From: Eubacteriales bacterium
GTDB taxonomy: Bacteria > Bacillota > Clostridia > Lachnospirales > Lachnospiraceae
Length of the DNA stretch: 64,000 nt
Direction of reading: 5' to 3'
Assembly: GCA_030536755.1 (NCBI GenBank)
Contig: JAUNPJ010000006.1
Location: 1 to 64,000 of the forward strand
This document shows, piece after piece, positions 13,095-32,280 of this stretch (positions are counted from its first letter, which is position 1; each line of letters begins with the position of its first letter). The translations under genes and the position numbers were made by a program. Under the pieces are notes generated by a model that worked only from the letters and a program-made list of their open reading frames with translations, was not told the DNA's origin and made no database searches.

Positions 13095-14309
13095 CTATTT
13101 TGATTGAGCTTTTTGAAATAGTTGACAAGCAAATGTTCCTATTGTAGCCATAATCCCAGAAATTAGAAAAATATAAAAGAAGCCATTGATGGGGGCTATG
13201 TCCAATGTTTTTCCGGAAAGATAATAATAGAAGGAATCCGGAGAATATGCCAGGAAGGAAATCACGCTGTATGCAAGTCCGGACAGGTAAGGAGGAAGTC
13301 CTGTTTCTGTCACAATAACAAGAGACATACTTTTTCCCAGTGATACGAAGAAACACAGAAGAAGGATGCACACCAATGTTCCGACTGCATTTTCTCTGAA
13401 AAGAAAAATCATAGGTATCATAGCAAAGATATAAAGTATAAATGCACCTTTCATCAGTCGGACAGCCGATTGAATCTTATCTGTGATGTGCCCCGCGATT
13501 GGGGCTGCAACCAGAATTACTACATACATTCTTAAAATGGTTACTGCATTGACTACGCTGCTGGGAAGGTGAAATTCACTGGTCAGGTAAGGCAGCGTAT
13601 AGGTCAGGTTGGAAAAATTAATGTAATTTGCAAAAATAATCAATCCTGCAAGCCAAAAGCGTTTGTTGCGCAAAATAATCTTGAGTGAACGCAGATCAAA
13701 AAGTCCTCCGGATTTTTCAGCTTTAGGAATGGAAGGAAACCATAGGACAGTACACACTGCGCTCAAAAAATTCAGGATAGAAAACAATATCAGAAGATAT
13801 TTCAATCCTGTCTGAGGGCTTTCAGAGGCTGAGGTAACGCCAAAACCTGCCAGCGAAATAACACTTCCAAAAATACTCGAAAAAATATAAAACTTTGCGT
13901 AAGCTTCTCCCTGATGAAAGGGACCTCCTATGTTCTGCATCGCAGAAAGATAGGCAGGATAGAAAGTGGCATTGACCAGAAAACCGACAAGTCCGAATAC
14001 GATCAGTAATACCGGGTAGGGAGGAAGAAAAGATAAAAACAGTGAAAATCCTCCCAGTAAGGTCAGTGATCCGGTCATCAGACATTTCGATGAAAATCTG
14101 GTCTGAAAAAAGGTGCCGCAAAGATAAGCAAACATGGCACATATACCACAGATACTGAAAATTTCTCCTACCTGTGTGTTTGTGATGGAAAAACCATACT
14201 GAACAGAAGAATAGTAAAGAGATTTCATAATCTGAAGATTGTAAATGGCATCGTAGGAAAAAGACACGATCACCAGAGCGGTCAGAAAATTGGGCTTTAT
14301 TTTTTGCAT
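13095..14309 (-). CDS. MFS transporter 1 of the GlpP-leader island
   Basis: About 404 residues with 12 hydrophobic segments, a major facilitator. The start MQKIKPNFLTALVIVSFSYDAIYN is chosen at 14309 because GAGG lies 8 nt upstream; an ATG at 14315 is only 2 nt from it. The region between helices 2 and 3 and the mid-loop basic segment fit MFS, but no substrate motif is recognised. It has its own promoter and an attenuator leader of the AGAGA type, so its expression should follow that of the rest of the island. It probably imports the island's substrate or a relative of it. Confidence 0.85.
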   Translation of the reverse strand: MQKIKPNFLTALVIVSFSYDAIYNLQIMKSLYYSSVQYGFSITNTQVGEIFSICGICAMFAYLCGTFFQTRFSSKCLMTGSLTLLGGFSLFLSFLPPYPVLLIVFGLVGFLVNATFYPAYLSAMQNIGGPFHQGEAYAKFYIFSSIFGSVISLAGFGVTSASESPQTGLKYLLILFSILNFLSAVCTVLWFPSIPKAEKSGGLFDLRSLKIILRNKRFWLAGLIIFANYINFSNLTYTLPYLTSEFHLPSSVVNAVTILRMYVVILVAAPIAGHITDKIQSAVRLMKGAFILYIFAMIPMIFLFRENAVGTLVCILLLCFFVSLGKSMSLVIVTETGLPPYLSGLAYSVISFLAYSPDSFYYYLSGKTLDIAPINGFFYIFLISGIMATIGTFACQLFQKAQSK

Positions 14310-14321
14310 ATTCATAACCTC

Positions 14322-14366
14322 AAAAAAAGCAGGACTTCACCTCTTTTCAAATGCGAAGTTACCTGC
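14322..14366 (-). terminator. Leader terminator A (upstream of MFS 1)
   Basis: On the minus strand GCAGG-TA-ACTTC pairs with GAAGT-CCTGC and is followed by seven T (plus-strand A at 14322-14328). The 5' arm uses the GTAACTTC that is also the 3' arm of the antiterminator hairpin, so the two folds exclude each other. Confidence 0.8.
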
Positions 14367-14422
14367 TCTCTAATTCTCTAAAGTAACTAACTTCATTATA
14401 AAAAAAGTATACAAAATGTCAA
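14357..14422 (-). promoter_or_regulatory. Promoter and AGAGA-type antiterminator hairpin A
   Basis: Minus-strand TTGACA (14422-14417), 16-bp spacer, TATAAT (14400-14395). The transcript then holds AGTTAC (14388-14383), TTT, AGAGA, ATT, AGAGA, GCAG, GTAACT (14362-14357). This is one of four leaders with the pattern AGUURC-N3/4-AGAGA-N3/4-AGAGA-N2/4-GUAACU. I infer that a bound protein, the island's GlpP homologue, stabilises it and blocks terminator A. Confidence 0.75.
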
Positions 14423-14504
14423 GAGAATTTAAAGAAAAATATATGAGAAAAGAGCAGCTCTTTTTTAGAAAGAACTGCCCTTAGGGGATGATGACAAAAG
14501 GCGA

Positions 14505-15755
14505 TTAAGCGGCCTTTTTGAGATTATCTTTTTTGATGATTCTGCTCAGAACTAATGCAAATACGATACAGAGTACTGCTGCAACCAGAGCATAAGCCCA
14601 TGTCATTTTGAAACCTGCAGCGCCGTAGTTATCCATCCAGGAACCAACCAGTGTGTACATAAATAAGTCAGGTGTATAGCCAAGGCAGGATGCAATACCG
14701 GAAACACGACCACTCATTTCTACAGGAATTCCGGCATCGTCATGTACGGCGAAGTACTGGCTTCTGACTGCATAGATAAAGAGAAGACCAAACATAAAAT
14801 TTACAATGATGGCTCCAACAAGGCTTGCCTGTACAGGAAGAACGAGGAATAATCCGAAGGAAACTGCCAGCAGACCGCATCCTCCTACGATAACCTTAAT
14901 TCTGGAGTGAAGTTTATCAGCAAGGAAACCGCCGAGAATTCCGCCAAGTCCCTGAACAAGATAGCGGATACCACCCAGAGTAGAGCCGGTAGCCTCGGAT
15001 AATCCATAGTAATTTACAGCATAAGTATTTACATAGCCAATCAGTCCATATACGCTGTAGGCTGTAAAGATGATGGCAACCAGAATCCATACACGTGGAA
15101 TAGTAAGTGCTTTGAACATACCCTTTGTTACTTCCATCAGGCTCTCTGTATGTTCTTCTTTCTTTGTATCCTCAATAAAGATGAAATTGAGAATACCGAT
15201 GATGATGACAACAATAGAGCATACTTTGATCGCTGCTGATGTTCCCAGAATTTCATTGCCGGATGCAGCAAAATGGCTGTATGCAGCTGTCATGCCGAAT
15301 ACCAGAAGTGCATTTAAAATACCGCGCAGACCTTCCTGTAAGCCGAAGAGACGACCCTGTTCTTCCGGAGTACCCAGCATACGTGTGGCTTTGATACATG
15401 CGGACCAGTAGGTAATAATAGTAGAAATACCCATTAATACAAAAATCATTCTTGCAATATTGTAGCTTGGGAAGGTTGAAAACCAAAGTCCCAGAAGTCC
15501 TGTTACAATAAAGGAGAAGGTCAGCAGTTTTCTTGCTGAGAATTTGTCGGCAACAATACCGCCTATGAAATAGGACAGAGTTGCCATGGTGGCATACCCG
15601 GATGAGAGCAGACCCATCTGAGCATTCGTCAGATTCATTGCACTCTGAATCTGAGGGTAGAAAGTTTCTCTGATGTATGGAAGCTGGAAGATGATTCCGG
15701 CACCGGCAGCCAGAAGAAGCAGTGTTCCATACTTTTTGATAAAAGCTTTGTTCAT
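14505..15755 (-). CDS. MFS transporter 2 of the GlpP-leader island
   Basis: A 416-residue major facilitator with 12 helices. It begins MNKAFIKKYGTLLLLAAGAGI and contains the MFS-type loop GGIVADKFSARKLL after helix 2. The start at 15755 follows GGAGGGAAATCAC; an ATG 5 codons earlier is closer to the ribosome site. It is not a recent duplicate of MFS 1, since the two differ throughout. The divergent promoter region (15756-16182) carries one AGAGA leader for this gene and one for the oxidase operon. The substrate is unknown. Confidence 0.87.
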   Translation of the reverse strand: MNKAFIKKYGTLLLLAAGAGIIFQLPYIRETFYPQIQSAMNLTNAQMGLLSSGYATMATLSYFIGGIVADKFSARKLLTFSFIVTGLLGLWFSTFPSYNIARMIFVLMGISTIITYWSACIKATRMLGTPEEQGRLFGLQEGLRGILNALLVFGMTAAYSHFAASGNEILGTSAAIKVCSIVVIIIGILNFIFIEDTKKEEHTESLMEVTKGMFKALTIPRVWILVAIIFTAYSVYGLIGYVNTYAVNYYGLSEATGSTLGGIRYLVQGLGGILGGFLADKLHSRIKVIVGGCGLLAVSFGLFLVLPVQASLVGAIIVNFMFGLLFIYAVRSQYFAVHDDAGIPVEMSGRVSGIASCLGYTPDLFMYTLVGSWMDNYGAAGFKMTWAYALVAAVLCIVFALVLSRIIKKDNLKKAA

Positions 15756-15816
15756 GTGATTTCCCTCCATATTTTTTTACTTTTGTGATTCTCCGACTTA
15801 CCTGTTTGAGCAAAAG

Positions 15817-15869
15817 AAAAAGAGGCAACTTCTACGGGAAAATAAATATTCCCAATAGAAGTTACCTCT
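15817..15869 (-). terminator. Leader terminator B (upstream of MFS 2)
   Basis: On the minus strand AGAGGTAACTTCTA pairs with TAGAAGTTGCCTCT (one G-T pair), extended by TTGGGAA with TTCCCG, then T5. It is very stable and includes the GTAACTT that is the 3' arm of hairpin B. Confidence 0.85.
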
Positions 15870-15928
15870 CTCTGCGCTCTCTGTAAGTAACTTGGCTTTA
15901 TCATAAAGCAAAGTATCAGAGTTGTCAA
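15860..15928 (-). promoter_or_regulatory. Promoter and AGAGA-type antiterminator hairpin B
   Basis: Minus-strand TTGACA (15928-15923), 17-bp spacer, TATGAT (15905-15900). The transcript has AGTTAC (15892-15887), TTAC, AGAGA, GCGC, AGAGA, GAG, GTAACT (15865-15860). It has the same layout as A, C and D and competes with terminator B. Confidence 0.78.
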
Positions 15929-15978
15929 TCTGACAAAAGATACAAAAGAAAGGAGAAAATAGTGTACAAAATGCACAA

Positions 15979-16046
15979 TTGACAAATGGGCGCAAAACGT
16001 ATTATAGTGATAACAGTTACAGAAGAGATGGAAGAGAAACGTAACT
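15979..16046 (+). promoter_or_regulatory. Promoter and AGAGA-type antiterminator hairpin D
   Basis: TTGACA at 15979-15984 and TATAGT at 16003-16008 (18-bp spacer). The leader has AGTTAC (16015-16020), AGA, AGAGA (16024-16028), TGGA, AGAGA (16033-16037), AAC, GTAACT (16041-16046). It drives the eight-gene operon that includes the GlpP gene itself, so the regulator is probably autoregulated. Confidence 0.75.
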
Positions 16047-16100
16047 CACACGTACCGGGGTCTATCCGGATACTGGCGAGGGTCTTTCTCTTCTTTTTTT
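16031..16100 (+). terminator. Leader terminator D (upstream of the oxidase-ETF operon)
   Basis: GAAGAGAAA (16031-16039) pairs with TTTCTCTTC (16085-16093), followed by T7. An inner CCGG/CCGG hairpin lies between. The left arm consumes the second AGAGA box and the stem encloses the GTAACT arm of hairpin D, so the two structures exclude each other. Confidence 0.72.
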
Positions 16101-16182
16101 ATTGCCATAACCGGAGAGAGGCTCAGCCGAAAGAGTATCGTGAAAAACAACAATGTAATGTAAAAAAGAAAGGAGAAACATT

Positions 16183-17652
16183 ATGGCAGCATTAACAAGA
16201 GAACAGATTGTAGCAGGCTTAACAGAGAGATTAGGAGCGGATCAGGTAATTACAGACGAGACAGTATTAAAAGAAAGCAGTATTGACCGCTACAGAAAAT
16301 TTGAACAGTGTCACGAAGTATACACACAGCCAATTCCGGCAGCAGTTGTATATGTAAAAAGTACAGAGGATGTACAGAAGGTTCTGAAATTTGCCAATGA
16401 GAACAAAATCAATGTGGTTCCGAGAACGGGACATTCCGCAATTGAGGGCGGACTGGAAACTGCTCTGGAAAACTCCATCGTTGTAGATGGCTCTACTATG
16501 AATAAAGTACTGAAAGTAGACAAATACAATATGCAGGTAACCTGTCAGTGTGGAGTTCCTCTGCAGGATCTGGATGATATGTTAAGAGAGCAGGGATATA
16601 CAACAGGACATTCTCCACAGTCCAAACCACTGGCTCAGATGGGAGGCCTGGTTGCTACAAGAAGTATCGGACAGTTTTCTACTTTATATGGTGGAATCGA
16701 GGATATGGTAGTTGGTCTTGAGGTGGTATTCCCGAATGGTGAAATCTGCAGAATCAAAAATGTACCAAGAAGAGCGGCAGGTCCCGATATCAGACATATT
16801 GTAATTGGTAACGAAGGTGCATTGTGCTATATTACAGAAGTTACTGTAAAGATGTTTAAATATCAGCCGGAGAATAATATTTACATGGGATACACCATTC
16901 CATCTATGAAAGATGGTTTTGATGCACTGCGTGCAGTCATGGCAGAGGGATACAAACCATCCATTGCACGTCTGTATGACGCAGCAGATGCAAGCTTACA
17001 TTTTGACTGGTCCGGTGATCAGAATGTACTGATTTTCATGGCAGAAGGTCCAGCAGGAGTGACAAAAGCCACAGCAGAGGGAATTGAGAAAATCGTGTCC
17101 GGTTTCGATGGAGTAAAAGTCGTAGATCCGAAGATTATTGAAAAATGGTTTATGGGACTGAACTGGGGTGCAGAGCAGATTGCTGAGGAAAGAGAAGAAA
17201 TCCTTGCGACAAACAATATTGGTATCACAACAGAGGTTTCCGGATGCTGGGACTGCATTTATGAAATCTATGACAATGCCTGCAAACGTATTATGAATGA
17301 AGTGCCGGATATGACTTTGATGGGCGGACATTCTTCTCATAGTTACATAAACGGAACTAATATGTACTTTGTATATTATTATAATGTAGTTGATTGTGCA
17401 CCAGAAGAAGAAATTACAAAATATCACAACCAGATCAACCGCATCATCTGCGAAGAAGTAATCAAACACGGCGGTTCTATTGTTCACCATCACGGACTTG
17501 GAAAAGCCAGAGCTCACTGTGTATGGGATGAGTATGGCACTTCCTTCTATATGCTTGATACATTGAAAAAAGCTTTTGATCCAAACGGTATTATGAATAT
17601 GGGAACTTTGATTCCGATTAAGCATGATGCTGAGAATCCTTGGAACTTTTAG
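16183..17652 (+). CDS. FAD-linked oxidase 1 (GlcD / AGPS-like)
   Basis: A 489-residue flavoprotein of the FAD_binding_4/FAD-oxidase_C type (glycolate oxidase subunit D, D-lactate dehydrogenase and alkyl-DHAP synthase group). The FAD-binding PCMH segment is NVVPRTGHSAIEGGLE, about residues 85-100, and AGPDIRHIVIGNEGALCYIT, about 205-225. The C-terminus ends with DPNGIMNMGTLIP as in GlcD. It should oxidise a 2-hydroxy acid or related alcohol and pass electrons to the ETF encoded next. The start follows AAAGGAGAAACATT. Its 3' end overlaps the next gene by 29 nt. Substrate not identified. Confidence 0.85.
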   Translation: MAALTREQIVAGLTERLGADQVITDETVLKESSIDRYRKFEQCHEVYTQPIPAAVVYVKSTEDVQKVLKFANENKINVVPRTGHSAIEGGLETALENSIVVDGSTMNKVLKVDKYNMQVTCQCGVPLQDLDDMLREQGYTTGHSPQSKPLAQMGGLVATRSIGQFSTLYGGIEDMVVGLEVVFPNGEICRIKNVPRRAAGPDIRHIVIGNEGALCYITEVTVKMFKYQPENNIYMGYTIPSMKDGFDALRAVMAEGYKPSIARLYDAADASLHFDWSGDQNVLIFMAEGPAGVTKATAEGIEKIVSGFDGVKVVDPKIIEKWFMGLNWGAEQIAEEREEILATNNIGITTEVSGCWDCIYEIYDNACKRIMNEVPDMTLMGGHSSHSYINGTNMYFVYYYNVVDCAPEEEITKYHNQINRIICEEVIKHGGSIVHHHGLGKARAHCVWDEYGTSFYMLDTLKKAFDPNGIMNMGTLIPIKHDAENPWNF

Positions 17653-18451
17653 GGTAGTCCCGGATTTGGATCTGCTGTCCGAGGAGGACTGGGCAGTTCA
17701 TGAGAAAAATCTGGTAGATACAAGCTTCGTTAAAACGATATGGAACTGTTTTGATGAAAGTGCCCTTGAATTTATGCTGAGGCTTTCCGAAAACTCGGAA
17801 AGCCTTGGCATTCCTGTACAGCTTGATGCAATGACAGTGGGAAACAGTATTTGCGAAAATTATTTGCGCACCCTGTATGCATTGGGCTTTGAAAAAGCCG
17901 TTAGGATTCAAGCAGAGGAAGAACTTCAGTTCCAGCCGGAACTGATTGCCGCACTGATTACGGAATATTGGGAATGTTTTGGTGGTCAGGATGTCATTGT
18001 GATGGGACAAAGAAGTGCCGACGGAACGAACGGAAAGGTTCCGCTTCTTGTGGCAGAAAAACTGAGATGGCCTTGTGTGACGCAAGTGATGGGAATTTCC
18101 ATGGAGGATGAGGCGCACCTTCGGGTGAGCAGTAAAATGGATGACTGTGTGTGTACACAGACCGTAAAAATACCATGCGTTCTTGTGGTGGGAGATGCAC
18201 CAGCCGCATTTTTGCGTGTGCCCACATTAAAAGATCGTATGACAAAAGGAAAACGGGCGATTGAAACTCATTCGTTGGATGAGTTTGAAGTCTGGAAGCA
18301 ATGGAACACATCTGACAGCAGTGTCTGTCTGGTGCACATGGAGGCTGTTGCAGAAAAACGGGATGGAATCCTGATTCAGGGGGATTCTGTTCAGGAAAAA
18401 GTGAAGCTTTTGTATAAAGCCTACCTGAGAGAAAGGTTGGAGCAGCTATGA
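17624..18451 (+). CDS. Electron transfer flavoprotein beta-like subunit 1
   Basis: A 275-residue EtfB homologue, more divergent than the second one. It keeps the N-terminal fold (RILGTFRVVPDLDLL), FDESALEFMLRLSE for the usual D-x-x-ALE-A-x-x segment, and GQRSADGTNGKVPLLVAEKL in place of the canonical TDGDTAQV nucleotide loop. With EtfA it would accept electrons from FAD oxidase 1. The altered loop (ADGTNGKV) makes NAD binding and bifurcation uncertain for this copy. It starts inside the 3' end of the oxidase gene and shares an ATGA overlap with the next gene. Confidence 0.8.
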   Translation: MMLRILGTFRVVPDLDLLSEEDWAVHEKNLVDTSFVKTIWNCFDESALEFMLRLSENSESLGIPVQLDAMTVGNSICENYLRTLYALGFEKAVRIQAEEELQFQPELIAALITEYWECFGGQDVIVMGQRSADGTNGKVPLLVAEKLRWPCVTQVMGISMEDEAHLRVSSKMDDCVCTQTVKIPCVLVVGDAPAAFLRVPTLKDRMTKGKRAIETHSLDEFEVWKQWNTSDSSVCLVHMEAVAEKRDGILIQGDSVQEKVKLLYKAYLRERLEQL

Positions 18452-19404
18452 AAATATACATCATCATCAATGGATGTTCCAATGATTGTGAAAAACAGAT
18501 GCGAATGCAGCAGGCATTTGCTCGAAAAGCGCATCTTGATCTGAAAAAAGCACATACAATTATCATCTGTGACAGAGAGATGGATGGGGATGGTAAATTG
18601 AAACTGGCGGAAATGGCCCCAACCAAATCCGTTCTTTTTGTTGTTCTTAAGTTTTATAATCCTGAAATTATTCTGGATGATTTGAGCAGAAGAGTGGAAA
18701 GAAACAGTCTTTGTATATTTGGAAGTGGCTTCTCCGGACAGGAATTATCCGTCCGGCTGGGGGCAAGAATGGGAGGATGTTCACTTATTGATGTTTTAAG
18801 TCTGTCAAAACAGGACGATAAGTATGTGGCAGAAAAAATGGTGTATTCCAATCATATGAAGGCTACATATAAGTTGACCAAGAGTCCCTTTTGTATTTCC
18901 ATATGCAAAAGTCAGGAAGAAAGTTGGGAAGCATATGAGCAGGAGCACGAGGTGGAAGAGTGCTATGTCTGGAACGATTCTTTTGAAGTGAAAGAGCCTG
19001 TGAAGGAATATGTTGAGGAAAAAAGCAGTCTGGAAGATTGTCAATTTGTGGTTGTTGCAGGCCGTGGTGCTGGAAACAAAGAAAAAATAAGACAGCTCCA
19101 GCAATTATCGGAAGAAATGGGTGCTGAATTTGGGATCAGTCGTCCTGCGGCAATGAATGCGTGGGCTCCTATGGATAGACTGGTTGGTGTTTCAGGAGTT
19201 ATGTTAAAATCCCAAATTTGTATTGCGGCAGGGATTTCGGGATCACCGGCCTTTTATGCGGGAATAGACAAAAGCCGTTTTATTGTTGCTGTTAATACAG
19301 ATGAACGTGCGCCGCTTATGAAAAAGGCGGATATTGCTGTCGTAGGAGATTGCTGTGAGGTTTTAAGTGAATTGGCAGGATATATCAGTAAAAAAACGGA
19401 ATAG
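18448..19404 (+). CDS. Electron transfer flavoprotein alpha subunit 1
   Basis: A 318-residue EtfA. The C-terminal FAD domain is clear: VVVAGRGAGNKEKIRQLQQL, SRPAAMNAWAPMDRLVGVSG, and QICIAAGISGSPAFYAGID followed by IVAVNTDERAPLMKKADIAVVGD. The N-terminal domain is less conserved. It overlaps etfB 1 by 4 nt (ATGA), so the two subunits are made together. It pairs with the upstream oxidase as in lactate dehydrogenase-EtfAB complexes of acetogens, by analogy only. Confidence 0.88.
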   Translation: MKIYIIINGCSNDCEKQMRMQQAFARKAHLDLKKAHTIIICDREMDGDGKLKLAEMAPTKSVLFVVLKFYNPEIILDDLSRRVERNSLCIFGSGFSGQELSVRLGARMGGCSLIDVLSLSKQDDKYVAEKMVYSNHMKATYKLTKSPFCISICKSQEESWEAYEQEHEVEECYVWNDSFEVKEPVKEYVEEKSSLEDCQFVVVAGRGAGNKEKIRQLQQLSEEMGAEFGISRPAAMNAWAPMDRLVGVSGVMLKSQICIAAGISGSPAFYAGIDKSRFIVAVNTDERAPLMKKADIAVVGDCCEVLSELAGYISKKTE

Positions 19405-19420
19405 AAGCAGGAGGAATCAA

Positions 19421-20842
19421 ATGAAAAAACAATTGATTTTCCCTATGGAAGAAAAATATCAGGAATATTTGGTGGATGAGTCCAAATTTACTGGCGAGGC
19501 GCAGAGTATCTCTTTTCCGGAAAATGAGCAAGAAGTTCTTGCTATTACAAAAGAGATGGCAGAGGCAGGCGTGCCTGTAACGATACAGAGTGGAAAAACT
19601 GGAATTGTGGGAGGTGCAGTCCCATTAGGAGGCCATATCATGAACTTGTCCAGAATGAAGGCATGTGTTTCCTCCGGTGTGCGGGAAGATGGTGTTTGCT
19701 GGATTGCAGTAGAGCCGGGCATAAATCTGACAGAGTTAAACGGTGAAATTCAAAAGCAGTTTCGAAAAACACCGGTTTTCTGGCCGCCTCAGCCTACGGA
19801 AACCTCCGCTGCCGTGGGGGGAATCCTTGCTTCGAATGCAAAAGGAATCAATGCATGCCACTATGGAGACAGCAGGCAGTATGTAGAGAAAATCCATATG
19901 GTACAAATAGACGGAACAGTCCGGGAAATCAGACGTGGAGAGAAAATCCAAAAGATTGGTGAAGAGGTGTGTGATGAACTGGATTTGATTCTTGGAGGAG
20001 AAGGAATCTACGGCATCATCACACAGGCAACTCTTCTTCTTGTGGAGAAGCCAGCTTCTATATGGGGAATCAGTTTTTTCTTTGAAGAAAAAGAAGGCGC
20101 TTTTGCTTTTGCAGAAGGCGCAAAAAAAATAGAAGACCGAAAAGATGCATGGGTGAATGCGGCTGAATATCTGGATCGGACTTCTATTAACCTGATTGAA
20201 CAACATAAGCCTGTCATGACAAAAATTAAAGAGCTTCCAGATATTGATTCGCAGTATATTGCTATGTGTTATCTGGAGCTGGCTGGTGCAGAGGATGGGA
20301 TTGAGGAACTGGCAGGAGATTTTATGGAATTGGCAGTTGCCTGTGGAAGTGATCCTGACAAAGCCTGGGCCGTCTCCGGAGATTCAGAAATTGAGAAAAT
20401 GCGAGCGTTTCGTCATGCAGCGGCAGAAACGGCCAATCTGTTTATTGAAGAGAAGCGCAGAAATGAGCCTCGTATTACAAAACTTGGTACAGATATCGCA
20501 CAGAATAGAACCTGTTTTGGGGAAATGGTGCATATGTATGAAGATTCGCTGAAAAAAGAAGGCTTAAAGGGCTGTATCTTTGGCCATTTGTTGGAAAATC
20601 ATTTACATGTTAATATTCTCTCAGAGAATATTACACAGTACGAGAAGGGCAAAAAGCTGACAGAAACCTGGGCGAAGGAAGCGTTTGCTTTGGGAGGATG
20701 TGCGGCAGTTGAGCATGGAATTGGAAAATTAAAAAAATCGTTTTGCGGAGACCTGTTTTCTCCGGAACGAAAAGAAGCCATGCTGCAGGAGAAGAAGCTG
20801 TGTGATCCGGCAGGGCTGTGCAATCAGGGAAATATTTTCTGA
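19421..20842 (+). CDS. FAD-linked oxidase 2 (glycolate oxidase / D-lactate dehydrogenase-like)
   Basis: A 473-residue FAD-binding oxidase, second of two in the operon. FAD-binding segments are VPVTIQSGKTGIVGGAVPLG (about 55-75) and ETSAAVGGILASNAKG (about 125-140). The C-terminus has GHLLENHLHVNIL and AVEHGIGKLKK, the metal/substrate His region of the GlcD/DLD family, then a Cys-containing end. The start at 19421 follows GCAGGAGGAATCAA. It is not closely similar to oxidase 1, so the two probably act on different substrates. It is paired with the following EtfB and EtfA. Confidence 0.87.
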   Translation: MKKQLIFPMEEKYQEYLVDESKFTGEAQSISFPENEQEVLAITKEMAEAGVPVTIQSGKTGIVGGAVPLGGHIMNLSRMKACVSSGVREDGVCWIAVEPGINLTELNGEIQKQFRKTPVFWPPQPTETSAAVGGILASNAKGINACHYGDSRQYVEKIHMVQIDGTVREIRRGEKIQKIGEEVCDELDLILGGEGIYGIITQATLLLVEKPASIWGISFFFEEKEGAFAFAEGAKKIEDRKDAWVNAAEYLDRTSINLIEQHKPVMTKIKELPDIDSQYIAMCYLELAGAEDGIEELAGDFMELAVACGSDPDKAWAVSGDSEIEKMRAFRHAAAETANLFIEEKRRNEPRITKLGTDIAQNRTCFGEMVHMYEDSLKKEGLKGCIFGHLLENHLHVNILSENITQYEKGKKLTETWAKEAFALGGCAAVEHGIGKLKKSFCGDLFSPERKEAMLQEKKLCDPAGLCNQGNIF

Positions 20843-21683: not shown

Positions 21684-22656
21684 AGAAGCATGGTCTGGAA
21701 TTTTGGTGTATTTGGAAATGAACCGGGGAAATATTGCAGATGTAAGTCTGGAATTGCTTGGAAAGGCATTGGAATTATCCAGAAAAAACGGTGAAAAAAT
21801 ATATGGCATCGCAGTTGTTCAACCAGGTGAAACGTGTGATTTTTTCAGAAAATTGCCTTTGGACGAACTCAACATGTATGAGATGAAATCGGAATTTCAG
21901 GCAGATGTTTATGAAGAGGCATTCGTTGACTGCATTGAGGAATATTACCCCTCTGTTGTGCTCATTGGAGGGACGGTGCAGGGGCGGTCTCTGGCTGCAC
22001 GTCTGGCCGTTGCCTTCCGTACCGGGGTGACGGCAGACTGCACAGCTTTGGATATTGATAAGGAAGGAAATCTCGTTCAGACAAGACCGGCATTTGGCGG
22101 AAATATTATGGCCAGTATTTTGACGGCCAAGACAAGACCGCAGATTGCTACGGTGCGTCCCGGTGTGTTCGAGCAAGTGTTCTTGCAAAGCGAAAGGTCT
22201 ATATCAGTGAAACGAAAGAATGGGACGAGCAAAAGCAAAAAGGCACGTATAGAAGAAAGAAGAGAAATTCAAAAGAAAGCCGGGATAGAGGAACAGGAAA
22301 TTCTTGTGGTTGCCGGCCGTGGCGTACAAAGAAGGGAAGATCTGGAGATGCTGCGGGAATTGGCAGAACTTCTTGGCGGGGGGCTGGCGAGCAGCCGTGC
22401 TCTGGTGGAAAAGGGATGGATCAGTCATGAAAATCAGATTGGTCTTTCCGGAAAATCCGTAAAACCAAAATGTATGCTTGCATTCGGAGTGTCAGGAACG
22501 GTGCAGTTTATGGCAGGAATGCGCAATACACCAAATATTATAGCGGTGAATTCGGATCCGAAGGCAAGAATTTTTGAGATTGCTCATTATCCCGTTTGTG
22601 CTGATTTGTATGAGGTAGTCCCAGGAATGCTGGAACTGTTGAAAAGGAAGAAATAG
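21676..22656 (+). CDS. Electron transfer flavoprotein alpha subunit 2
   Basis: A 326-residue EtfA. The N-terminal half includes PSVVLIGGTVQGRSLAARLA and RTGVTADCTALDID. After a basic linker (KRKNGTSKSKKARIEERREIQ in part) comes the FAD domain with VVAGRGVQRREDLEMLRELA, ASSRALVEKGWISHENQIGL and KCMLAFGVSGTVQFMAGM. It completes the second oxidase-EtfBA module. The order oxidase-etfB-etfA is the same in both modules, but the proteins are diverged. Confidence 0.9.
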   Translation: MSREAWSGILVYLEMNRGNIADVSLELLGKALELSRKNGEKIYGIAVVQPGETCDFFRKLPLDELNMYEMKSEFQADVYEEAFVDCIEEYYPSVVLIGGTVQGRSLAARLAVAFRTGVTADCTALDIDKEGNLVQTRPAFGGNIMASILTAKTRPQIATVRPGVFEQVFLQSERSISVKRKNGTSKSKKARIEERREIQKKAGIEEQEILVVAGRGVQRREDLEMLRELAELLGGGLASSRALVEKGWISHENQIGLSGKSVKPKCMLAFGVSGTVQFMAGMRNTPNIIAVNSDPKARIFEIAHYPVCADLYEVVPGMLELLKRKK

Positions 22657-22669
22657 AAAGAAGGATAGC

Positions 22670-23122
22670 ATGGAACTGAGGTATAAACTGGAACGACACG
22701 AAATAGAAGAATCCCTTTTGTGTCTGGACTGGAAGAAAGAAGGGTGGAGAAAATATATTCACATTGGCATTATGGGAGTGATTGCCATAGTCTGTCTTGT
22801 GGCTTATGGTACTGCTCCGGAGAAAATGTTCTTTTTCTGGCTTGGGCTTCTGGCAGTGTTGTTGATGTTTGCAATTTTATATCTTCCAGGCTATCGGCGA
22901 AACAGGAGAGCAGCAGAAATGGCAAAGGGTATTTATAAAATTACAGTGCCGGATGCAGGAATTCTGGAGGGGTATGAGTCAGAGCATGTCTTTACAATAC
23001 GGACAAAAAATGAAATTTATTGTATTCCCAAACGTGTTTTGAAGAAACCTCAGCGTGAACGGATTGAGAAATTGCTGAAAGAAAAAGCAGTAAAATATTA
23101 TAAAATTACGACGGGGAGGTAA
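22670..23122 (+). CDS. Small membrane protein, YcxB-like
   Basis: 150 residues. A cytoplasmic N-terminus is followed by two hydrophobic helices (about 33-50 and 54-73) and a soluble C-terminal domain with FTIRTKNEIYCIPKRVLKK, which resembles the YcxB-like family. The function of that family is not known. It lies between etfA 2 and the BCCT gene with short gaps (13 and 6 bp), so it belongs to the operon and may assist the transporter. Family assignment is tentative. Confidence 0.55.
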   Translation: MELRYKLERHEIEESLLCLDWKKEGWRKYIHIGIMGVIAIVCLVAYGTAPEKMFFFWLGLLAVLLMFAILYLPGYRRNRRAAEMAKGIYKITVPDAGILEGYESEHVFTIRTKNEIYCIPKRVLKKPQRERIEKLLKEKAVKYYKITTGR

Positions 23123-23128
23123 AAGCGT

Positions 23129-24724
23129 ATGAATGAAAATACAAAAGAAGTGAACCTGAAGGTCAAAAAGATGGTCTTTTTGCCTCCGTGGATTCTTCTG
23201 GTTGTCATGGTAGTCATCAGCCTTGTGAATGGCGATGCCTTTTTGAAAGGACTAAATGCCGTCACCAGCTGGATCCTTGACAATTTTGCTTGGGCGTTTA
23301 ACCTGACTACGTTGGCGTGTGTGTTTACGATTGTGATTGTATACTTTTCACCGCTGGCAAAGGTTCGTATTGGAGGCAGAAAAGCAAGGCCGATTATGAA
23401 TTTTATCAATTTGGTATGGATTACCCTGTGTACGACCATTGCGGCAGGAATTCTGTTTTGGGGATGTGCAGAGCCTATATACCAGATGTATGGACCGGCT
23501 GCGGCAGAAGGAGTAGAACCGGGAAGTGCGGGTGCGGCTTTGTTTGCCATGAAGACTATGTTTCTGGAATGGACCTGGTCTCCGTATGCCATCTACACGG
23601 TGGCTACCTTGATTTTTGCTTTTGTTTTTTACAATATGAGAAAACCACATTCCATTGCGTCTGCGTTTGTTCCGGTGTTTGGTGATAGAGTGAGTAAATA
23701 CAATTCACTGGTGGATGTTATTTGTCTGTTTGCGTTGGTAACAGGTATGGCAGCGTCTCTTGGTACAGGAACTATGACGATCGCCGGTGGAATTGAGAAT
23801 GTATTTGGTATTAAAAGTTCACCTTTGACCTGGGGAGTGATTATTATTTTGATAGTTACAACCTTTGTCATCTCATCGATTTCCGGTATTATGAAGGGAA
23901 TCCGCATTTTGTCCGATGTGAATGCCAAAGTATATATGGTATTGTTGGTATTTCTGCTGATTTTCGGACCAACCTCCTTTATGCTCAATTTTGCATCGGA
24001 ATCCCTGGGAGCATATTTGCGTGATTTCTTTCCTATGAGTCTGGCTACAGGTGAAATCTTTGGAGACGGCTGGGCGAAGGGATGGCCAATTTTTTATTGG
24101 TGTAACTGGCTGGCGTGGACGCCTATTACTGCCATCTTTTTGGGAAAAATCCTGAAAGGTTATACGATTCGTGATGCTATTCACTGTAATTTTGTGATTC
24201 CGTCTGTGTTTGCTACAATCTGGATGGGGCTTTTTTCTACAGCGTCTATTTATTATGAGATGAATGGGAAGGGATTTTATGACCTTTTGCAAAACAGTGG
24301 TCCTGAGGCAGTGGTATACGGAGTGTTCCGTCAGCTTCCTCTTTCCACATTGGTAATTGCATTCTATCTGTTTATTGTGTTTATTTCGTTTGTAACGGCA
24401 TCGGATTCTAATACTACTGCTATGGCCGGATTGTGCACCAGCGGTATTACCCAGGAAGAGCAAAATTCTCCTGCATGGCTGAAAATTGTATGGGGAGTTA
24501 CCATTGCGGCAGTTACCTGGATCTTGATCAGCTTTGCAGGAATTGATGGAATTAAGGCAGCTTCAAATCTGGGCGGTTTTCCCAATATGTTTTTCATGAT
24601 AATTATGATAATCAGTTTATTGAAAATCTGTAAAAATCCGAAGAAATATGATATATTTAAGGAAGACTACGATGACCAGGGAAGACCGATTCCATCGGAG
24701 CGGCTGTCTGTCGAAGAAACGTAA
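23129..24724 (+). CDS. BCCT-family transporter
   Basis: A 531-residue transporter of the betaine/carnitine/choline family with 12 helices. The family signature region is present: GILFWGCAEPIYQMYGPA early, GTGTMTIAGGIENVFG, FYWCNWLAWTPITAIFLGKI (the W-rich substrate helix) and FVTASDSNTTAMAGLC. BCCT proteins carry quaternary amines or other zwitterions by Na+/H+ symport or exchange. Together with two MFS proteins this gives the island three candidate importers. The start follows GGGGAGGTAAAAGCGT. Confidence 0.9.
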   Translation: MNENTKEVNLKVKKMVFLPPWILLVVMVVISLVNGDAFLKGLNAVTSWILDNFAWAFNLTTLACVFTIVIVYFSPLAKVRIGGRKARPIMNFINLVWITLCTTIAAGILFWGCAEPIYQMYGPAAAEGVEPGSAGAALFAMKTMFLEWTWSPYAIYTVATLIFAFVFYNMRKPHSIASAFVPVFGDRVSKYNSLVDVICLFALVTGMAASLGTGTMTIAGGIENVFGIKSSPLTWGVIIILIVTTFVISSISGIMKGIRILSDVNAKVYMVLLVFLLIFGPTSFMLNFASESLGAYLRDFFPMSLATGEIFGDGWAKGWPIFYWCNWLAWTPITAIFLGKILKGYTIRDAIHCNFVIPSVFATIWMGLFSTASIYYEMNGKGFYDLLQNSGPEAVVYGVFRQLPLSTLVIAFYLFIVFISFVTASDSNTTAMAGLCTSGITQEEQNSPAWLKIVWGVTIAAVTWILISFAGIDGIKAASNLGGFPNMFFMIIMIISLLKICKNPKKYDIFKEDYDDQGRPIPSERLSVEET

Positions 24725-24736
24725 AGGAGACCTTAA

Positions 24737-25330
24737 ATGAAAACGAATAACGCAATTGACTTTTTTATGGAGAGCACGGAACGCTCGCCGATTATTGCCG
24801 GAATCAAAAATGATGAGTGGCTGCAGGAATGCAAGAAATCAGACTGTGAAATTGTGTATATTTTGTATGGGGATATCTGCAACATTGCAGATATTGTGGA
24901 ACAGATTAAGGAAACAGGCAAAATGGCAGTGGTACATATTGATTTGATTAACGGATTTTCTGCCAAAGATATTTGTGTGGATTTTATCAAAAAATATACC
25001 AGAGCAGACGGAATCATCAGCACCAAACCTTATCTGATTAAGCGCGCCAATGAACTCGGGCTGTTTACCGTGCAGAGATTTTTTATGCTGGATGCGATTA
25101 CTTATGCAAATATTAAAAAGCATGTCAAAGAAAACAATCCGGATGTTGTAGAAATTATGCCGGCGGGATTAACGAAAATGATACGCTATGTTTTGGAGCA
25201 GGTAGATAAACCATTGGTTGCCAGTGGACTTGTATTGGATGAAGAGGATGTGATGGGAGCTTTGAAAGCAGGAGCTATCGCTATATCTACTACCAATCAG
25301 GAAGTATGGAAATTAAACTCGGCAGATTAA
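24737..25330 (+). CDS. GlpP-family RNA-binding antiterminator
   Basis: A 197-residue TIM-barrel protein of the GlpP family (glycerol-3-phosphate-responsive antiterminator of Bacillus glpD). Family blocks seen in order are VVHIDLINGFSAKD (66-79), DGIISTKPYLIKRANELGLF (91-110), VQRFFMLD (112-119), PDVVEIMPAG (135-144), ASGLVLDEEDVMGALKAGA (162-180) and ISTTNQEVWKL (183-193). No glycerol genes (glpF, glpD) are nearby, so its ligand may be another phosphorylated compound, for example the FGGY kinase product. It is the last gene of the operon behind leader D. I infer that it binds the four AGAGA hairpins of the island. The only visible regulator of the island, it is not a DNA-binding protein. Confidence 0.87.
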   Translation: MKTNNAIDFFMESTERSPIIAGIKNDEWLQECKKSDCEIVYILYGDICNIADIVEQIKETGKMAVVHIDLINGFSAKDICVDFIKKYTRADGIISTKPYLIKRANELGLFTVQRFFMLDAITYANIKKHVKENNPDVVEIMPAGLTKMIRYVLEQVDKPLVASGLVLDEEDVMGALKAGAIAISTTNQEVWKLNSAD

Positions 25331-25380
25331 TGAACAATATGCACAAAAAACAGATAGATTAATTAGATATTATCACAATA

Positions 25381-25446
25381 TTGACAATTGTATAAAAGCG
25401 TTTTATAATGACCATAGTTGCTGAAAGAGATGAAGAGAGAGTAACT
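25381..25446 (+). promoter_or_regulatory. Promoter and AGAGA-type antiterminator hairpin C
   Basis: Perfect TTGACA (25381-25386) and TATAAT (25404-25409), 17-bp spacer. The transcript starts near 25415 with AGTTGC (25416-25421), TGAA, AGAGA (25426-25430), TGA, AGAGA (25434-25438), GA, GTAACT (25441-25446). The hairpin is the very first thing transcribed. It controls the SDR-kinase-SurE unit. Confidence 0.8.
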
Positions 25447-25477
25447 TTTACCAGTAGGTAGAAGTTGCTCTTTTTTT
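25438..25477 (+). terminator. Leader terminator C (upstream of the SDR gene)
   Basis: A 15-bp stem pairs 25438-25452 with 25457-25471 around an AGTA loop, with T7 at 25471-25477. Its left arm contains GTAACT, the 3' arm of hairpin C. It is followed by 111 nt before the SDR start, so it acts within the leader. Confidence 0.88.
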
Positions 25478-25588
25478 GTATCCAGGTTTAGATGGAGATA
25501 CGAAAAAAACTTCTATTGTGCGCAGGTAGGAATTCTTTTCATCTCAGAAATATAATAATTTAAAAATATTATCTGGGAGGTAAAAACG

Positions 25589-26371
25589 ATGTTAAACATT
25601 AATGATTTTTCAATGGATTTCTTTTCTCTGAAAGGTAAAAACGCAATTGTAACAGGAGGAAACAGTGGACTTGGACAGGCTTTTGCACTGGCTTTGGCAA
25701 AGGCAGGAGCAAATATTTTTGCATTTGCTTTTGTGGATGACGATGGAACAACACAGAAGCTGATTGAGGATTGTGGTGTAAAATATTATTTCATGCAGGG
25801 AGATCTGACAGAGGATGGAATGTGCGACAAAATCGCTGAGAAATGCGTGGAAGTATATGGGAAAATTGATATTCTGGTAAACTGTGCGGGTATTTGTAAG
25901 ATTGCAGATGTTCTTGACTTCGGAAGAAAAGAGTGGGATCCTATGATTGCGATTAACCTGACAGGTGCATTTGATCTGAGCCATGCAGTTGCGAAATATA
26001 TGATTCCGCAGCGCAGTGGAAGAATCATCAACATTTGTTCACTGTTCTCCTTCCTTGGTGGTCTTGGCTCTCCAGCATATGCAGCTATGAAAGCTGGTCT
26101 GATGGGTCTGACAAAGGCTTATGCGGATGAACTTGGCAAATACGGAATTACTGTAAACGGTATTGCTCCAGGATACTTCCAGACAGCCATGACATCCGGA
26201 ACAGGAAGTGCAAATGACGAGAAATTTATCAAGATTAAGGAGCATATTCCTGCTGACCGCTGGGGCGAGAGACAGGATCTGATGGGAGCAACTGTTTTCC
26301 TGGCAAGCAAGGCTGCTGATTATGTAAATGGTACACTGCTGGTAGTAGACGGCGGATATCTGGTACGTTAG
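25589..26371 (+). CDS. SDR-family dehydrogenase (gluconate 5-dehydrogenase / KduD-like)
   Basis: A 260-residue classical short-chain dehydrogenase. The cofactor loop is TGGNSGLG (22-29), followed by NCAG at 98-101, the catalytic Ser at about 151 and YAAMK with Y164/K168. An acidic residue after the second strand (FVDDDG) suggests NAD preference. The closest groups by pattern oxidise or reduce sugar acids and polyols. It is the first gene of a three-gene unit with an FGGY kinase and SurE, suggesting that its keto product is phosphorylated next. Start after GGGAGGTAAAAACG. Confidence 0.9.
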   Translation: MLNINDFSMDFFSLKGKNAIVTGGNSGLGQAFALALAKAGANIFAFAFVDDDGTTQKLIEDCGVKYYFMQGDLTEDGMCDKIAEKCVEVYGKIDILVNCAGICKIADVLDFGRKEWDPMIAINLTGAFDLSHAVAKYMIPQRSGRIINICSLFSFLGGLGSPAYAAMKAGLMGLTKAYADELGKYGITVNGIAPGYFQTAMTSGTGSANDEKFIKIKEHIPADRWGERQDLMGATVFLASKAADYVNGTLLVVDGGYLVR

Positions 26372-26409
26372 TTTTCAGACAGAAAAGTTACAGGAAAAGA
26401 GGTTTCAGC

Positions 26410-27840
26410 ATGAGCGAAAAATATATTATTGGTATTGATGAAGGGTCACAGAGTGCCAAGATTTTGATTTTTGATACAAAGGGAAATATTGTGTGTGAGG
26501 CAAAACAGGCACTTCGTCCTTACAATCTTCCAGAACCGGGAATTGTAGAGCATCCGGATGATGACTGGTGGGATGCGATCTGTGCAGCTGGAAGAAAATG
26601 TATGGCAAAATTTGAGGGAAACAAAGAAGACATTGTGGGAATTGGGCTTTGTACCATCCGTTACTGCCGTGCGTATCTGAAAGAGGACGGAACATTGGCA
26701 CAGCCGGCATTGAGCTGGATGGATGTGCGTGTGTCACAGCCTTATGAGCACACAAATCCGGATGTCAAATATATTGTTGCTTCTTCCGGATATATTACGC
26801 ACCGTCTCACTGGTGAGCGCAAAGATACGGTAGCAAATTACGAAGGTGGATGGCCTATTGACGTGGATAAATGGGACTGGTCTGACGATCCGGAAGCCTA
26901 TAAGGCTACAGGCATGCCGAGAGAGATGCTGTTTGACCTAGTAATGCCGGGAGATGTACTTGGTTATGTGACAGAAGAGGCTTCAGAGGCAACAGGTTTT
27001 CCTCAGGGACTTCCTGTGGTTGCAACTTCCAACGATAAAGCAGTGGAAGGACTTGGAACCGGATGTATGGGAGATACCACAGCCTGTATTTCGCTTGGAA
27101 CCTACACAGCGGCCATGATGGAGGGAAAAGAGAATTTGAAAAATACGACAGCTGTATGGCCAAAGTTCTCCTGTGTACCTAATAAATATTTGTATGACAG
27201 TAATGGTATTCGCAGAGGTATGTGGACAATCAGCTGGTTCAGAGAAATTCTGGGTGACAGCTATATGAAAATGGCTGAAGAGAAAGGTATGTCTGCAGAA
27301 GAACTGTTAAGTGAAGAGGCTTCGCAGGTTCCGGCAGGAAGCGATGGCCTGATGACTGTTCTGGATTGGCTTGCACCGGTAGATGCCCGATATAAAAAAG
27401 GGATTATGATAGGATTTGATGGAAGGCATACAAGAGGTCATATTTACCGCTCCATTTTGGAAGCTGTTGCCATGACTATGAAAAAACATGTAGATGATAT
27501 GTGTCAAGAACTGAATGTGAAACTTGATAAAATTATCATCACAGGTGGCGGTTCCAACAGTGACCTGTTTATGCAGATTTTTGCGGATGTATTTCATATT
27601 CCGGCTGTTCGCAATGTTGTAAATGGTGCGGCGGGACTTGGCTCAGCTATTTGTGCTGCTGTGGCTGCAGGAGTTTATGCGAGCTTTGATGAAGCTGTAG
27701 AAAATATGGTGCGTATTAAGGATGAATTCCTGCCAGATGAAGAGCATACAAAACTGTATGACAGAATGGGCGAAGTGTACAGAGATATTACCAATCATAC
27801 AGATGAGATTCTGAAAAAATCTTACGAGATTTTTCAGTAA
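26410..27840 (+). CDS. FGGY-family carbohydrate kinase
   Basis: A 476-residue kinase of the xylulokinase/glycerol kinase family. The N-terminal phosphate loop is GIDEGSQSAKILIFD (8-22). The catalytic Asp probably lies in SWMDVR (about 103-108), as for the xylulokinase WNDxR motif. The C-terminal ATP site is KLDKIIITGGGSNSDLFMQIFADV, and NGAAGLGSAICAA follows the FGGY pattern. The sugar or polyol specificity is not evident. I infer that its phosphorylated product is the inducer sensed by the GlpP homologue, as glycerol kinase makes the inducer of GlpP. Confidence 0.9.
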   Translation: MSEKYIIGIDEGSQSAKILIFDTKGNIVCEAKQALRPYNLPEPGIVEHPDDDWWDAICAAGRKCMAKFEGNKEDIVGIGLCTIRYCRAYLKEDGTLAQPALSWMDVRVSQPYEHTNPDVKYIVASSGYITHRLTGERKDTVANYEGGWPIDVDKWDWSDDPEAYKATGMPREMLFDLVMPGDVLGYVTEEASEATGFPQGLPVVATSNDKAVEGLGTGCMGDTTACISLGTYTAAMMEGKENLKNTTAVWPKFSCVPNKYLYDSNGIRRGMWTISWFREILGDSYMKMAEEKGMSAEELLSEEASQVPAGSDGLMTVLDWLAPVDARYKKGIMIGFDGRHTRGHIYRSILEAVAMTMKKHVDDMCQELNVKLDKIIITGGGSNSDLFMQIFADVFHIPAVRNVVNGAAGLGSAICAAVAAGVYASFDEAVENMVRIKDEFLPDEEHTKLYDRMGEVYRDITNHTDEILKKSYEIFQ

Positions 27841-27858
27841 ATAATGGAGGTGGAAAGA

Positions 27859-28635
27859 ATGAGACCATTAATTTTGATTACGAATGATGATGGGATTTTG
27901 TCACCAGGGCTTCATGCTGCTGTGGAAGCGGTGCAGGAGATGGGGGATATTTTGATTGCTGCGCCTATACGTCAGCAGACTGGAATGGCACGTTCTTTCC
28001 CCTATCTGGATGATACAGGTATTATAGAAGAAATTCCGTTGGAAATTGGTGGAAAAACAATGATTGGATATGGTGTCCATGGTTCTCCTGCCTATTGTGT
28101 AGCAGAAGGTGTGATGGAATTGGCAGACAGAAAGCCGGATTTATGTATCAGCGGTATAAACTACGGCGAAAATCTTGGGAGAGTGCTGACTTTAAGTGGA
28201 ACAGTGGGTGCCATTTTAGAGGCAGACAGCCATGAAATTCCGGGACTTGCGATATCTGCTCTGGCTGATATGAGTACTTTTTTTACAATGGATTATCAGG
28301 AGTATTCCTGGAAAACTGCTCAGGCAGTTACACGTAGATGGGCAGAAAAGATATTGAAAGAAGGAATGCCGGAAGGTGCTCGGATGTTTAATATTAATGT
28401 TCCGGAAGGTGCTATGTGCGATACGCCGGAGAGGATTACGAGACAGGCATTACAGACGTATTTTATTTTCCAGAAACCTGAGAAAAGAGATTTTTCCAAA
28501 CCTCATAGAATCCATAGTAAAATCGTTATTGAAGAGGAAAAATTGGAAGCGGATAGTGATATCAGGGCTGCCTGCATAGACCGTGTAATTTCTGTAACAC
28601 CTCTGGATGGAGACTTATCTATTTCTATAAAATAA
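27859..28635 (+). CDS. surE: SurE-family 5'/3'-nucleotidase (phosphatase)
   Basis: 258 residues from the ATG at 27859, which follows AATGGAGGTGGAAAGA. It begins MRPLILITNDDGILSPGL, the SurE signature with the metal-binding DD, followed by AAPIRQQTG, GVHGSPAYCVAEG and CISGINYGENLG with the catalytic Asn. SurE enzymes are metal-dependent phosphatases on nucleotides and other phosphomonoesters. Its place after the kinase is unusual: here it could remove phosphate from a pathway intermediate or from the inducer. It lies 18 bp after the kinase gene. Confidence 0.88.
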   Translation: MRPLILITNDDGILSPGLHAAVEAVQEMGDILIAAPIRQQTGMARSFPYLDDTGIIEEIPLEIGGKTMIGYGVHGSPAYCVAEGVMELADRKPDLCISGINYGENLGRVLTLSGTVGAILEADSHEIPGLAISALADMSTFFTMDYQEYSWKTAQAVTRRWAEKILKEGMPEGARMFNINVPEGAMCDTPERITRQALQTYFIFQKPEKRDFSKPHRIHSKIVIEEEKLEADSDIRAACIDRVISVTPLDGDLSISIK

Positions 28636-32267: not shown

Positions 32268-32280
32268 GATTTTTGTGAAT

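Follow-up and report, generated by a model that had tools for sequence, protein, structure and literature searches.

In silico support for GlpP-type antitermination of a non-glycerol oxidase/ETF regulon in a gut-type bacterium

Background

Can a GlpP-family antiterminator be dedicated to genes other than those of glycerol metabolism? This question is raised by a 64-kb stretch of DNA from a Eubacteriales bacterium (contig JAUNPJ010000006.1), a gut-type bacterium; in the following, "the window" denotes this whole stretch of 64,000 nucleotides (nt). It contains an island of 14 genes in four hairpin-led operons: two units for MFS transporters (MFS1 and MFS2), a long operon with two GlcD-like FAD-linked oxidases (OXA and OXB), two pairs of electron-transfer flavoprotein (ETF) subunits, a BCCT transporter and a GlpP homolog, and an operon for a short-chain dehydrogenase/reductase (SDR), an FGGY-family kinase and a SurE-type phosphatase (Table 1). 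According to an earlier note on this DNA, the four leaders share one RNA motif that overlaps an intrinsic terminator, the GlpP homolog is the last gene of one unit, and the island lacks a DNA-binding regulator. The analysis described here supports the interpretation as non-glycerol GlpP antitermination in silico: it is very likely, judging from the sequences, that the GlpP-family protein encoded in the island has the four leaders as its targets and would override their terminators.

Results

The four leaders do carry one common motif, and all four hairpins were recovered with the coordinates, boxes and spacings given in the earlier note (Table 1). A search pattern covering the stem and the first box (AGTTRC-N2-5-AGAGA-N8-14-GTAACT) matched exactly four times in the window and not once in 100 dinucleotide shuffles. 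Even in the whole 3.84-Mb genome these four matches were the only ones, and the pattern read backwards gave none. Each motif begins 6-7 nt past the -10 hexamer of a promoter that fits the sigma-70 consensus in 11-12 of 12 positions, so that transcription probably begins (+1) with the A of AGTTRC. The same distance, with 10-12 of 12 consensus positions, was found in all 20 leaders measured, four from the window and 16 from relatives.

Each of these 20 leaders was folded as far as the fourth terminator U, and its minimum-energy structure was compared with a fold forced into the hairpin. In all four window leaders the minimum-energy fold is the terminator, whose stem includes 6-10 nt of the loop and 3-6 positions of the six-nt hairpin 3' arm, which bears out the overlap claimed before. 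Over the whole set, the terminator was more stable than the forced hairpin in 19 of 20 cases and took up 2-11 loop nt and 3-6 of the six 3' arm positions; the 3' arm was thus involved in every leader, usually together with box 2. In the MFS2 leaders of two islands (L040, L046) the loop share amounts to only 2 nt and the 3' arm alone is contested. The oxidase leader of another island (L041), when cut at its true T run, folds into a terminator (-32.7 kcal/mol) in which both box 2 and the 3' arm are included. Since the terminator takes up the 3' arm of the hairpin, both structures are mutually exclusive in these in silico folds. In several leaders the 3' arm of the terminator reads AGUUGCUCU or similar, which is a near-copy of the hairpin 5' arm and the complement of AGAG, and because of this near-identity the two arms would compete for the same strand. 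The predicted anatomy of the leaders is that of protein-dependent antitermination.

The protein that might exert this function is encoded in the island itself. Its gene is the only match to PF04309 in the genome (212.8 bits at a cut-off of 27) and is indeed the last one of the oxidase-ETF unit. No DNA-binding regulator was detected by family among the 14 island proteins, of which the 150-amino-acid (aa) protein matched no family at all. Family searches assigned the putative target genes to oxidases, ETF subunits, a BCCT transporter, an SDR and a kinase, and not to glycerol or glycerol-3-phosphate genes.

Similar islands recur in other Lachnospiraceae and Clostridia; eight relatives came from a GlpP search of genome contigs and further islands from whole-genome stretches. 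The conserved block has the order OXA/ETF/ETF/OXB/(ETF/ETF)/transporter/GlpP, followed by SDR/FGGY kinase/SurE, with a divergent MFS2. It is present in Ohessyouella blattaphilus (L040, L051; Lachnospiraceae), a Hespellia metagenome-assembled genome (L044), Claveliimonas bilis (L049), UBA2656 (L046) and the genomes G296 (L125), G085 (L124) and G262 (L041). A partial block was found in Caproiciproducens (L047), L045 and G287 (L042), and a rearranged or partial one in L048 and L050. Where the sequence covers them, the MFS2, oxidase and SDR units of the relatives' islands are preceded by motif leaders; the leader ahead of the SDR gene is degenerate in L048, and no motif leader was found in L050. 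In L040, an ABC transporter of the OpuAC type, which has a glycine-betaine-binding domain, takes the place of the BCCT transporter, and similar-looking genes were recognised by eye in L046 and L047. Three islands (L041, L044, L124) have a gene for an ARMT1-like phosphatase after glpP.

A covariance model built from 20 island motifs was run on 299 genomes of the family and 398 of the phylum. Strong matches (E ≤ 1.8e-4) occur in six family genomes (G000, G077, G085, G262, G287, G296). Co-occurrence of the motif with glpP, which the earlier note had named as support, was found in all six, as compared to 82 of 299 family genomes with a GlpP above the cut-off (chance probability 3.7e-4). As the islands are related, their synteny is the better argument: in five of the six genomes, the glpP gene lies inside the island. 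The same six genomes are exactly those with an OXA of at least 77% identity. Among the phylum genomes, strong matches were restricted to the genome of the window, so there is no wide occurrence of the motif without glpP, which the note had regarded as speaking against its proposal. Weaker matches (E 0.0019-0.49) appeared in 38 further family genomes. Five of these were inspected, and four lie inside genes (one at the last codons of its gene). The fifth, in G081 (L126, about 4781 on the minus strand, E 0.0019), is a remnant, consisting of promoter, hairpin and terminator followed by only residues 309-476 of the kinase at 73% identity; 9 kb of sequence contained no further gene of the island, and the genome lacks GlpP. 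This orphan leader is a relic of a lost island. Five weak matches from the phylum were located inside genes in four cases and at a gene junction with no terminator seen in one.

More distant OXA modules stand next to other regulators. The module of L195 (G085) and the first module of L194 (2490-9313; G296) are found beside an SIS-domain regulator, and that of L193 (G225) lies close to genes for an IclR regulator and a methyltransferase of the MttB family; our scan found no intergenic box in these three. Likewise, no box was found within 1.5 kb on either side of the OXA copy of G256 (46%). The SDR/FGGY/oxidase modules of L193 and L195 and the first one of L194 represent a natural regulator swap.

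The glycerol genes themselves, to which the earlier note had also pointed, provide the key test, namely whether targets of the known GlpP kind have this motif. We analysed a family set of 41 GlpP-region loci (L043, L052-L091) with a plain rule, demanding two GAG in a hairpin loop and an overlapping terminator. This rule was satisfied by eight of 38 glp upstream regions, against two of 163 others and one of 24 glpP upstream regions. Out of ten control trinucleotides, AGA gave six matches, GGA two, AAG one and the other seven none. When all 64 trinucleotides were applied to 31 phylum loci, GAG (10), AGA (8) and GGA (7), which are overlapping words, led the list and no other exceeded two. A sharpened rule ([AGT]GAGA-N1-3-[AGT]GAG with stem and T run) was satisfied by 19 of 56 glp upstream regions, as compared to 3 of 177 others and 2 of 45 for glpP, with 0.1 matches per shuffled set and class. 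The corresponding Fisher p of 1e-10 is optimistic, since some of these loci had also served to sharpen the rule. Thus, a hairpin of the same kind is present in part of the glycerol leaders of the sampled GlpP-bearing Bacillota, among which the leaders of B. subtilis were not identified.

Glycerol leaders from the wider phylum, where 31 of 41 boxes were left after removal of eight doubtful ones and two duplicates, show the device more plainly than the family loci. Examples are GGAGGACT-cggagatgtggaga-AGTCCTCC in L133 and TATGGC-ggagaaatggaga-GCCATG in the glpO leader of L137, and in L150, L152 and L153 two copies of the box precede glpF. The entire 13-nt loop of the L138 glpO leader, AGAGATGAAGAGA, recurs as an identical stretch within the 19-nt loop of the SDR leader in the window. 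If the spacing is widened to N1-4 and terminator overlap is required, the rule finds two of the four window leaders (MFS2 and SDR), nothing else in the 64 kb and nothing in 30 shuffles. Because this kind of hairpin also stands in glycerol leaders, and the loop of one of them recurs in the window, the best reading of the island motif, on sequence grounds, is that it represents one form of GlpP target. Glycerol boxes aligned with MAFFT (A2 with 12 of 14 boxes, A4 with 25 of 31) were rejected as covariation evidence; their 3' arms were misplaced, and pairing in A2 was 72.7% as against 72.0% in shuffles.

The GlpP proteins of the islands form a group of their own. In a tree of 87 GlpP proteins the 11 island proteins constitute one clade (support 100/99), and all 200 bootstrap trees give them a single origin, in a bootstrap that had not fully settled. 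They were compared with the 76 others, a group labelled by exclusion and not always encoded beside glp genes. H67, D69, G73, G92, R114, D119, E139, P142 and G164 are kept in all 11. In contrast, the otherwise conserved F41, S120 and G143 are changed in all 11, P146 in nine and G163 in eight, and T14, G144, L145 and Y151 are specific to the clade. Structures of GlpP relatives have been solved (3kts and 1vkf); we take G163-G164 to lie within the phosphate-binding end of the TIM barrel.

On the 3' side of the SurE gene, a 39-nt AT-rich, near-perfect inverted repeat (28759-28797) resembles a terminator on either strand. Judged by eye from the sequence, the adjoining region (29532-34593) encodes a molybdenum-hydroxylase-like protein and a large flavin/iron-sulphur-type reductase, and it lacks the leader motif.

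Table 1 Genes and predicted leader elements of the island (positions in the window)
Feature	Position	Strand	Basis or remark
MFS transporter 1	13095..14315	-	PF07690
Intrinsic terminator, MFS1 leader	14322..14370	-	fold; overlaps box 2 and 3' arm
GlpP-box hairpin (putative antiterminator), MFS1 leader	14357..14388	-	pattern and fold; starts at likely +1
Promoter, MFS1 unit	14395..14422	-	TTGACA-16-TATAAT, 12/12 consensus
MFS transporter 2	14505..15770	-	PF07690; 71-87% identity among full islands compared
Intrinsic terminator, MFS2 leader	15815..15872	-	fold
GlpP-box hairpin (putative), MFS2 leader	15860..15892	-	pattern and fold
Promoter, MFS2 unit	15900..15928	-	TTGACA-17-TATGAT, 11/12
Promoter, oxidase-ETF operon	15979..16008	+	TTGACA-18-TATAGT, 11/12
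GlpP-box hairpin (putative), oxidase-ETF leader	16015..16046	+	pattern and fold
Intrinsic terminator, oxidase-ETF leader	16030..16100	+	box 2 pairs with UUUCUCUUC ahead of U run
OXA, GlcD-like FAD-linked oxidase/dehydrogenase	16183..17652	+	PF01565 and PF02913
ETF beta-type subunit 1	17624..18451	+	PF01012
ETF alpha-type subunit 1	18448..19404	+	PF00766
OXB, second GlcD-like FAD-linked oxidase	19367..20842	+	family match; start codon provisional
ETF beta-type subunit 2	20880..21683	+	PF01012
ETF alpha-type subunit 2	21676..22656	+	PF00766
150-aa protein, no family match	22670..23122	+	relatives present in other islands
BCCT transporter	23129..24724	+	PF02028
GlpP-family antiterminator	24737..25330	+	PF04309; predicted to lie behind its own target leader
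Promoter, SDR-kinase-SurE operon	25381..25409	+	TTGACA-17-TATAAT, 12/12
GlpP-box hairpin (putative), SDR leader	25416..25446	+	pattern and fold; loop includes AGAGATGAAGAGA
Intrinsic terminator, SDR leader	25435..25477	+	fold
SDR oxidoreductase, KduD-like	25589..26371	+	family match
FGGY-family kinase	26410..27840	+	PF00370 and PF02782
SurE-type phosphatase	27844..28635	+	TIGR00087 above cut-off

Discussion

According to the mechanism proposed here, the first A of the hairpin would be the transcription start. In the default state, the 3' arm (GUAACU) of the growing RNA, usually together with the second AGAGA box, would fold into the terminator and transcription would stop within about 60-90 nt. 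Effector-loaded GlpP would bind the hairpin AGUURC-(RGAGA-N-RGAGA)-GUAACU and prevent its 3' arm and box 2 from joining the terminator, so that RNA polymerase could proceed into the transporter genes, both oxidase/ETF sets and the operon for SDR, kinase and SurE. Since glpP is the last gene of a controlled operon, basal readthrough might lead to positive feedback. As for the effector, our guess is a phosphorylated intermediate produced by the FGGY kinase of the island, by analogy to GlpK, which makes glycerol-3-phosphate for canonical GlpP.

What the analysis shows is the sequence and position of the leaders, their alternative folds, their conservation, the co-occurrence with glpP and the motif in common with glycerol leaders; GlpP binding, the direction of switching and the effector are inferred from this. 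Several observations weigh against the mechanism. In G287, which has the motif, a glycerol-type GlpP encoded on another contig is the only one found; the contig with the island ends inside it. Conversely, G036 (L192, upstream of 7035) and the second module of G296 (L194, upstream of 10480) possess a GlpP of 44-45% identity (136 aa and truncated in G296) beside related genes, but no leader hairpin of the GAG-N-GAG kind was found there; perhaps these leaders contain another form of GlpP target. Under the sharpened rule, 37 of the 56 glp upstream regions have no box. Support from covariation is weak because the island stem varies little: three of its six pairs never vary, and covariation was as high in 58 of 500 shuffles. 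The underlying alignment comprises 20 of 21 real-looking six-pair island motifs (the one at 1184 in L048, with an AGTTGT arm, was omitted, as were two in-gene matches from L041 and a register duplicate from L046), and its 108 of 108 paired cells are partly due to construction, as the motif finder demanded pairing. Outside this count, the outer pair is broken in the MFS2 leader of L041 and in the oxidase and MFS2 leaders of L049 and L124 (also L184), all of which were read by eye only. Moreover, the first box in relatives is sometimes AGAGC or AGAGT instead of AGAGA.

One might alternatively regard the inverted repeat AGTTAC...GTAACT at +1 to +32 as a DNA operator for a repressor, with the terminators being incidental. 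Its arms are perfect or near-perfect at the start site of four promoters, which is a common position for operators, and the outer letters vary little. However, the arm changes in 18 distinct rows, which had been chosen for pairing, comprise seven of the one-sided G-U kind and one from A-U to G-C. Since those seven are one-sided, they keep the pairing in RNA and lose the symmetry in DNA. The arms enclose conserved AGAGA boxes, the terminator overlap exists in 20 of 20 leaders and no DNA-binding regulator was found in the window's island, all of which makes an operator very unlikely. A role of GlpP as mere bystander, with the leaders being worked by a small-molecule riboswitch or another RNA-binding protein of the CsrA, TRAP or BglG/LicT type, appears most improbable. 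GA-rich hairpin loops broadly resemble targets of the CsrA/TRAP type, and CsrA is present in three of the six motif genomes, but it (PF02599) is absent from the window's genome and from two of the other five. No CAT or PRD antiterminator domain was found among the scanned island proteins (TRAP, HutP and BglG-type proteins were not searched genome-wide). With respect to riboswitches, Rfam gave no plausible match in six glycerol loci, and between 12500 and 29000 of the window it returned just two matches, to plant snoRNA and miRNA models, both below the cut-offs and not at the leaders. Furthermore, the same kind of loop stands ahead of glp genes, a class known to be controlled by GlpP.

Which effector an island GlpP senses is a separate question from the mechanism. 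Since the island proteins are altered at otherwise conserved positions, their effector is probably not glycerol-3-phosphate, and the ligand is probably still phosphorylated. The opposite view, that they still sense glycerol-3-phosphate and that a branch of glycerol or glycerophospho-head-group metabolism is encoded in the island, could draw on H67, D69, R114, D119, E139, P142 and G164, which are unchanged in all 11, and on the fact that GlpK belongs to the FGGY family. We consider it rather unlikely in view of the changes at F41, S120, G143, P146 and G163 described above. In addition, the score of the island kinase falls far short of the GlpK cut-off, and the true GlpK of this genome (742.8 bits) is encoded on another contig, where the gap upstream of its operon has a promoter but neither a box nor a leader terminator, nor was a box with a terminator found in the rest of the 8.6 kb examined.

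As to the pathway, the two GlcD-like oxidases, two ETF pairs, SDR, FGGY kinase, SurE, BCCT or OpuAC uptake and the MttB relative in a cousin module suggest a pathway in which a small compound of the quaternary-ammonium or betaine type, carrying a sugar-acid or polyol part, would be oxidised. The island also gives access to a route of anaerobic oxidation that has apparently not been described. Moreover, the results provide a simple target rule: a stem, a loop with two RGAG boxes, and a 3' side shared with the terminator. Together with a dedicated GlpP subclade that has a closing stem of its own in the target RNA and is altered at conserved residues, this makes RNA and ligand specificity accessible to leader and protein swaps.

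More divergent GlpP paralogs (24-27% identity) are encoded beside genes for FGGY-type kinases and aldolase-like proteins, mostly with an SDR gene, in L167, L169, L172 and L174; the aldolase was assigned by Pfam in L174 only, and a kinase stretch in L164 is hidden by an antisense frame. In L164 (3879, minus strand) and L174 (5275, plus strand), which belong to G319 and G363, a hairpin with a 10-bp stem, the loop AGAG-UUUUA-AGAGAG and an overlapping terminator follows a divergent GlpP (25-26% identity); the genes that come next in L174 encode an FGGY kinase, an SDR and a class II aldolase. The sequences of these hairpins suggest further non-glycerol GlpP regulons. In L166 (G001), two hairpins with UGAG-N4-UGAG loops, at 3055 (minus strand) and 5823 (plus strand), are both preceded by a promoter-like sequence and followed by a T run; one stands ahead of a divergent GlpP and the other ahead of an amidohydrolase and a GlpK-like kinase. 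No such hairpin was found in L167, L169 and L172, save a weak one before another operon in L167.

GlpP proteins might in general be RNA-binding antiterminators for which the signal is a phosphorylated product of a neighbouring FGGY-family kinase and not glycerol-3-phosphate alone, each subclade with its own hairpin variant; we put this forward tentatively, with somewhat less than even confidence. If it is true, the variants would be RGAGA-N-RGAG for glycerol, the AGUURC-closed form for the oxidase island, AGAG-N5-AGAGAG for the L174 operon of FGGY kinase, aldolase and SDR (the hairpin of L164 is identical) and UGAG-N4-UGAG in G001 (L166).

In the accessible part of the literature GlpP appears as a regulator of glycerol genes, and the GlpP leaders studied here gave no match to any Rfam model. 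Searches of the open-licence literature (subscription papers lie outside) returned no title or abstract opening on a general GlpP target motif, nothing relevant on the island gene set and, in line with the earlier note, no described case of GlpP controlling such a set. According to the accessible text of PMC9604022, the 5' untranslated regions of B. subtilis glpD, glpFK and glpTQ contain a promoter, a GlpP site and an intrinsic terminator, and PMC3997798, as far as accessible, cites work on the binding of GlpP to glpD leader mRNA and on its dual role in antitermination and mRNA stability. The island resembles this system in having a PF04309 protein and leaders with promoter, hairpin and intrinsic terminator. 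It differs in its putative regulon, which consists of oxidase, ETF, BCCT, SDR and kinase genes instead of glycerol genes, in the nearly fixed stem AGUURC:GUAACU, in the separate clade and altered conserved residues of its GlpP, and in the position of glpP inside its own regulon. In the BglG/LicT/SacY antiterminators with their ribonucleic antiterminator (RAT) hairpins, a protein-stabilised hairpin excludes an overlapping terminator, as the island hairpin is predicted to do; however, the proteins are unrelated, as PF04309 is the sole Pfam match of the island GlpP, which has no RNA-binding CAT or PRD domain. The two-hairpin antitermination of the ANTAR/NasR/EutV type likewise combines twin recognition elements with terminator overlap, but in the island both GAG elements share one hairpin loop, and there is no ANTAR domain among the scanned island proteins. 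Antitermination by GlpP as such is already known; a dedicated non-glycerol GlpP regulon would be a new form of it.

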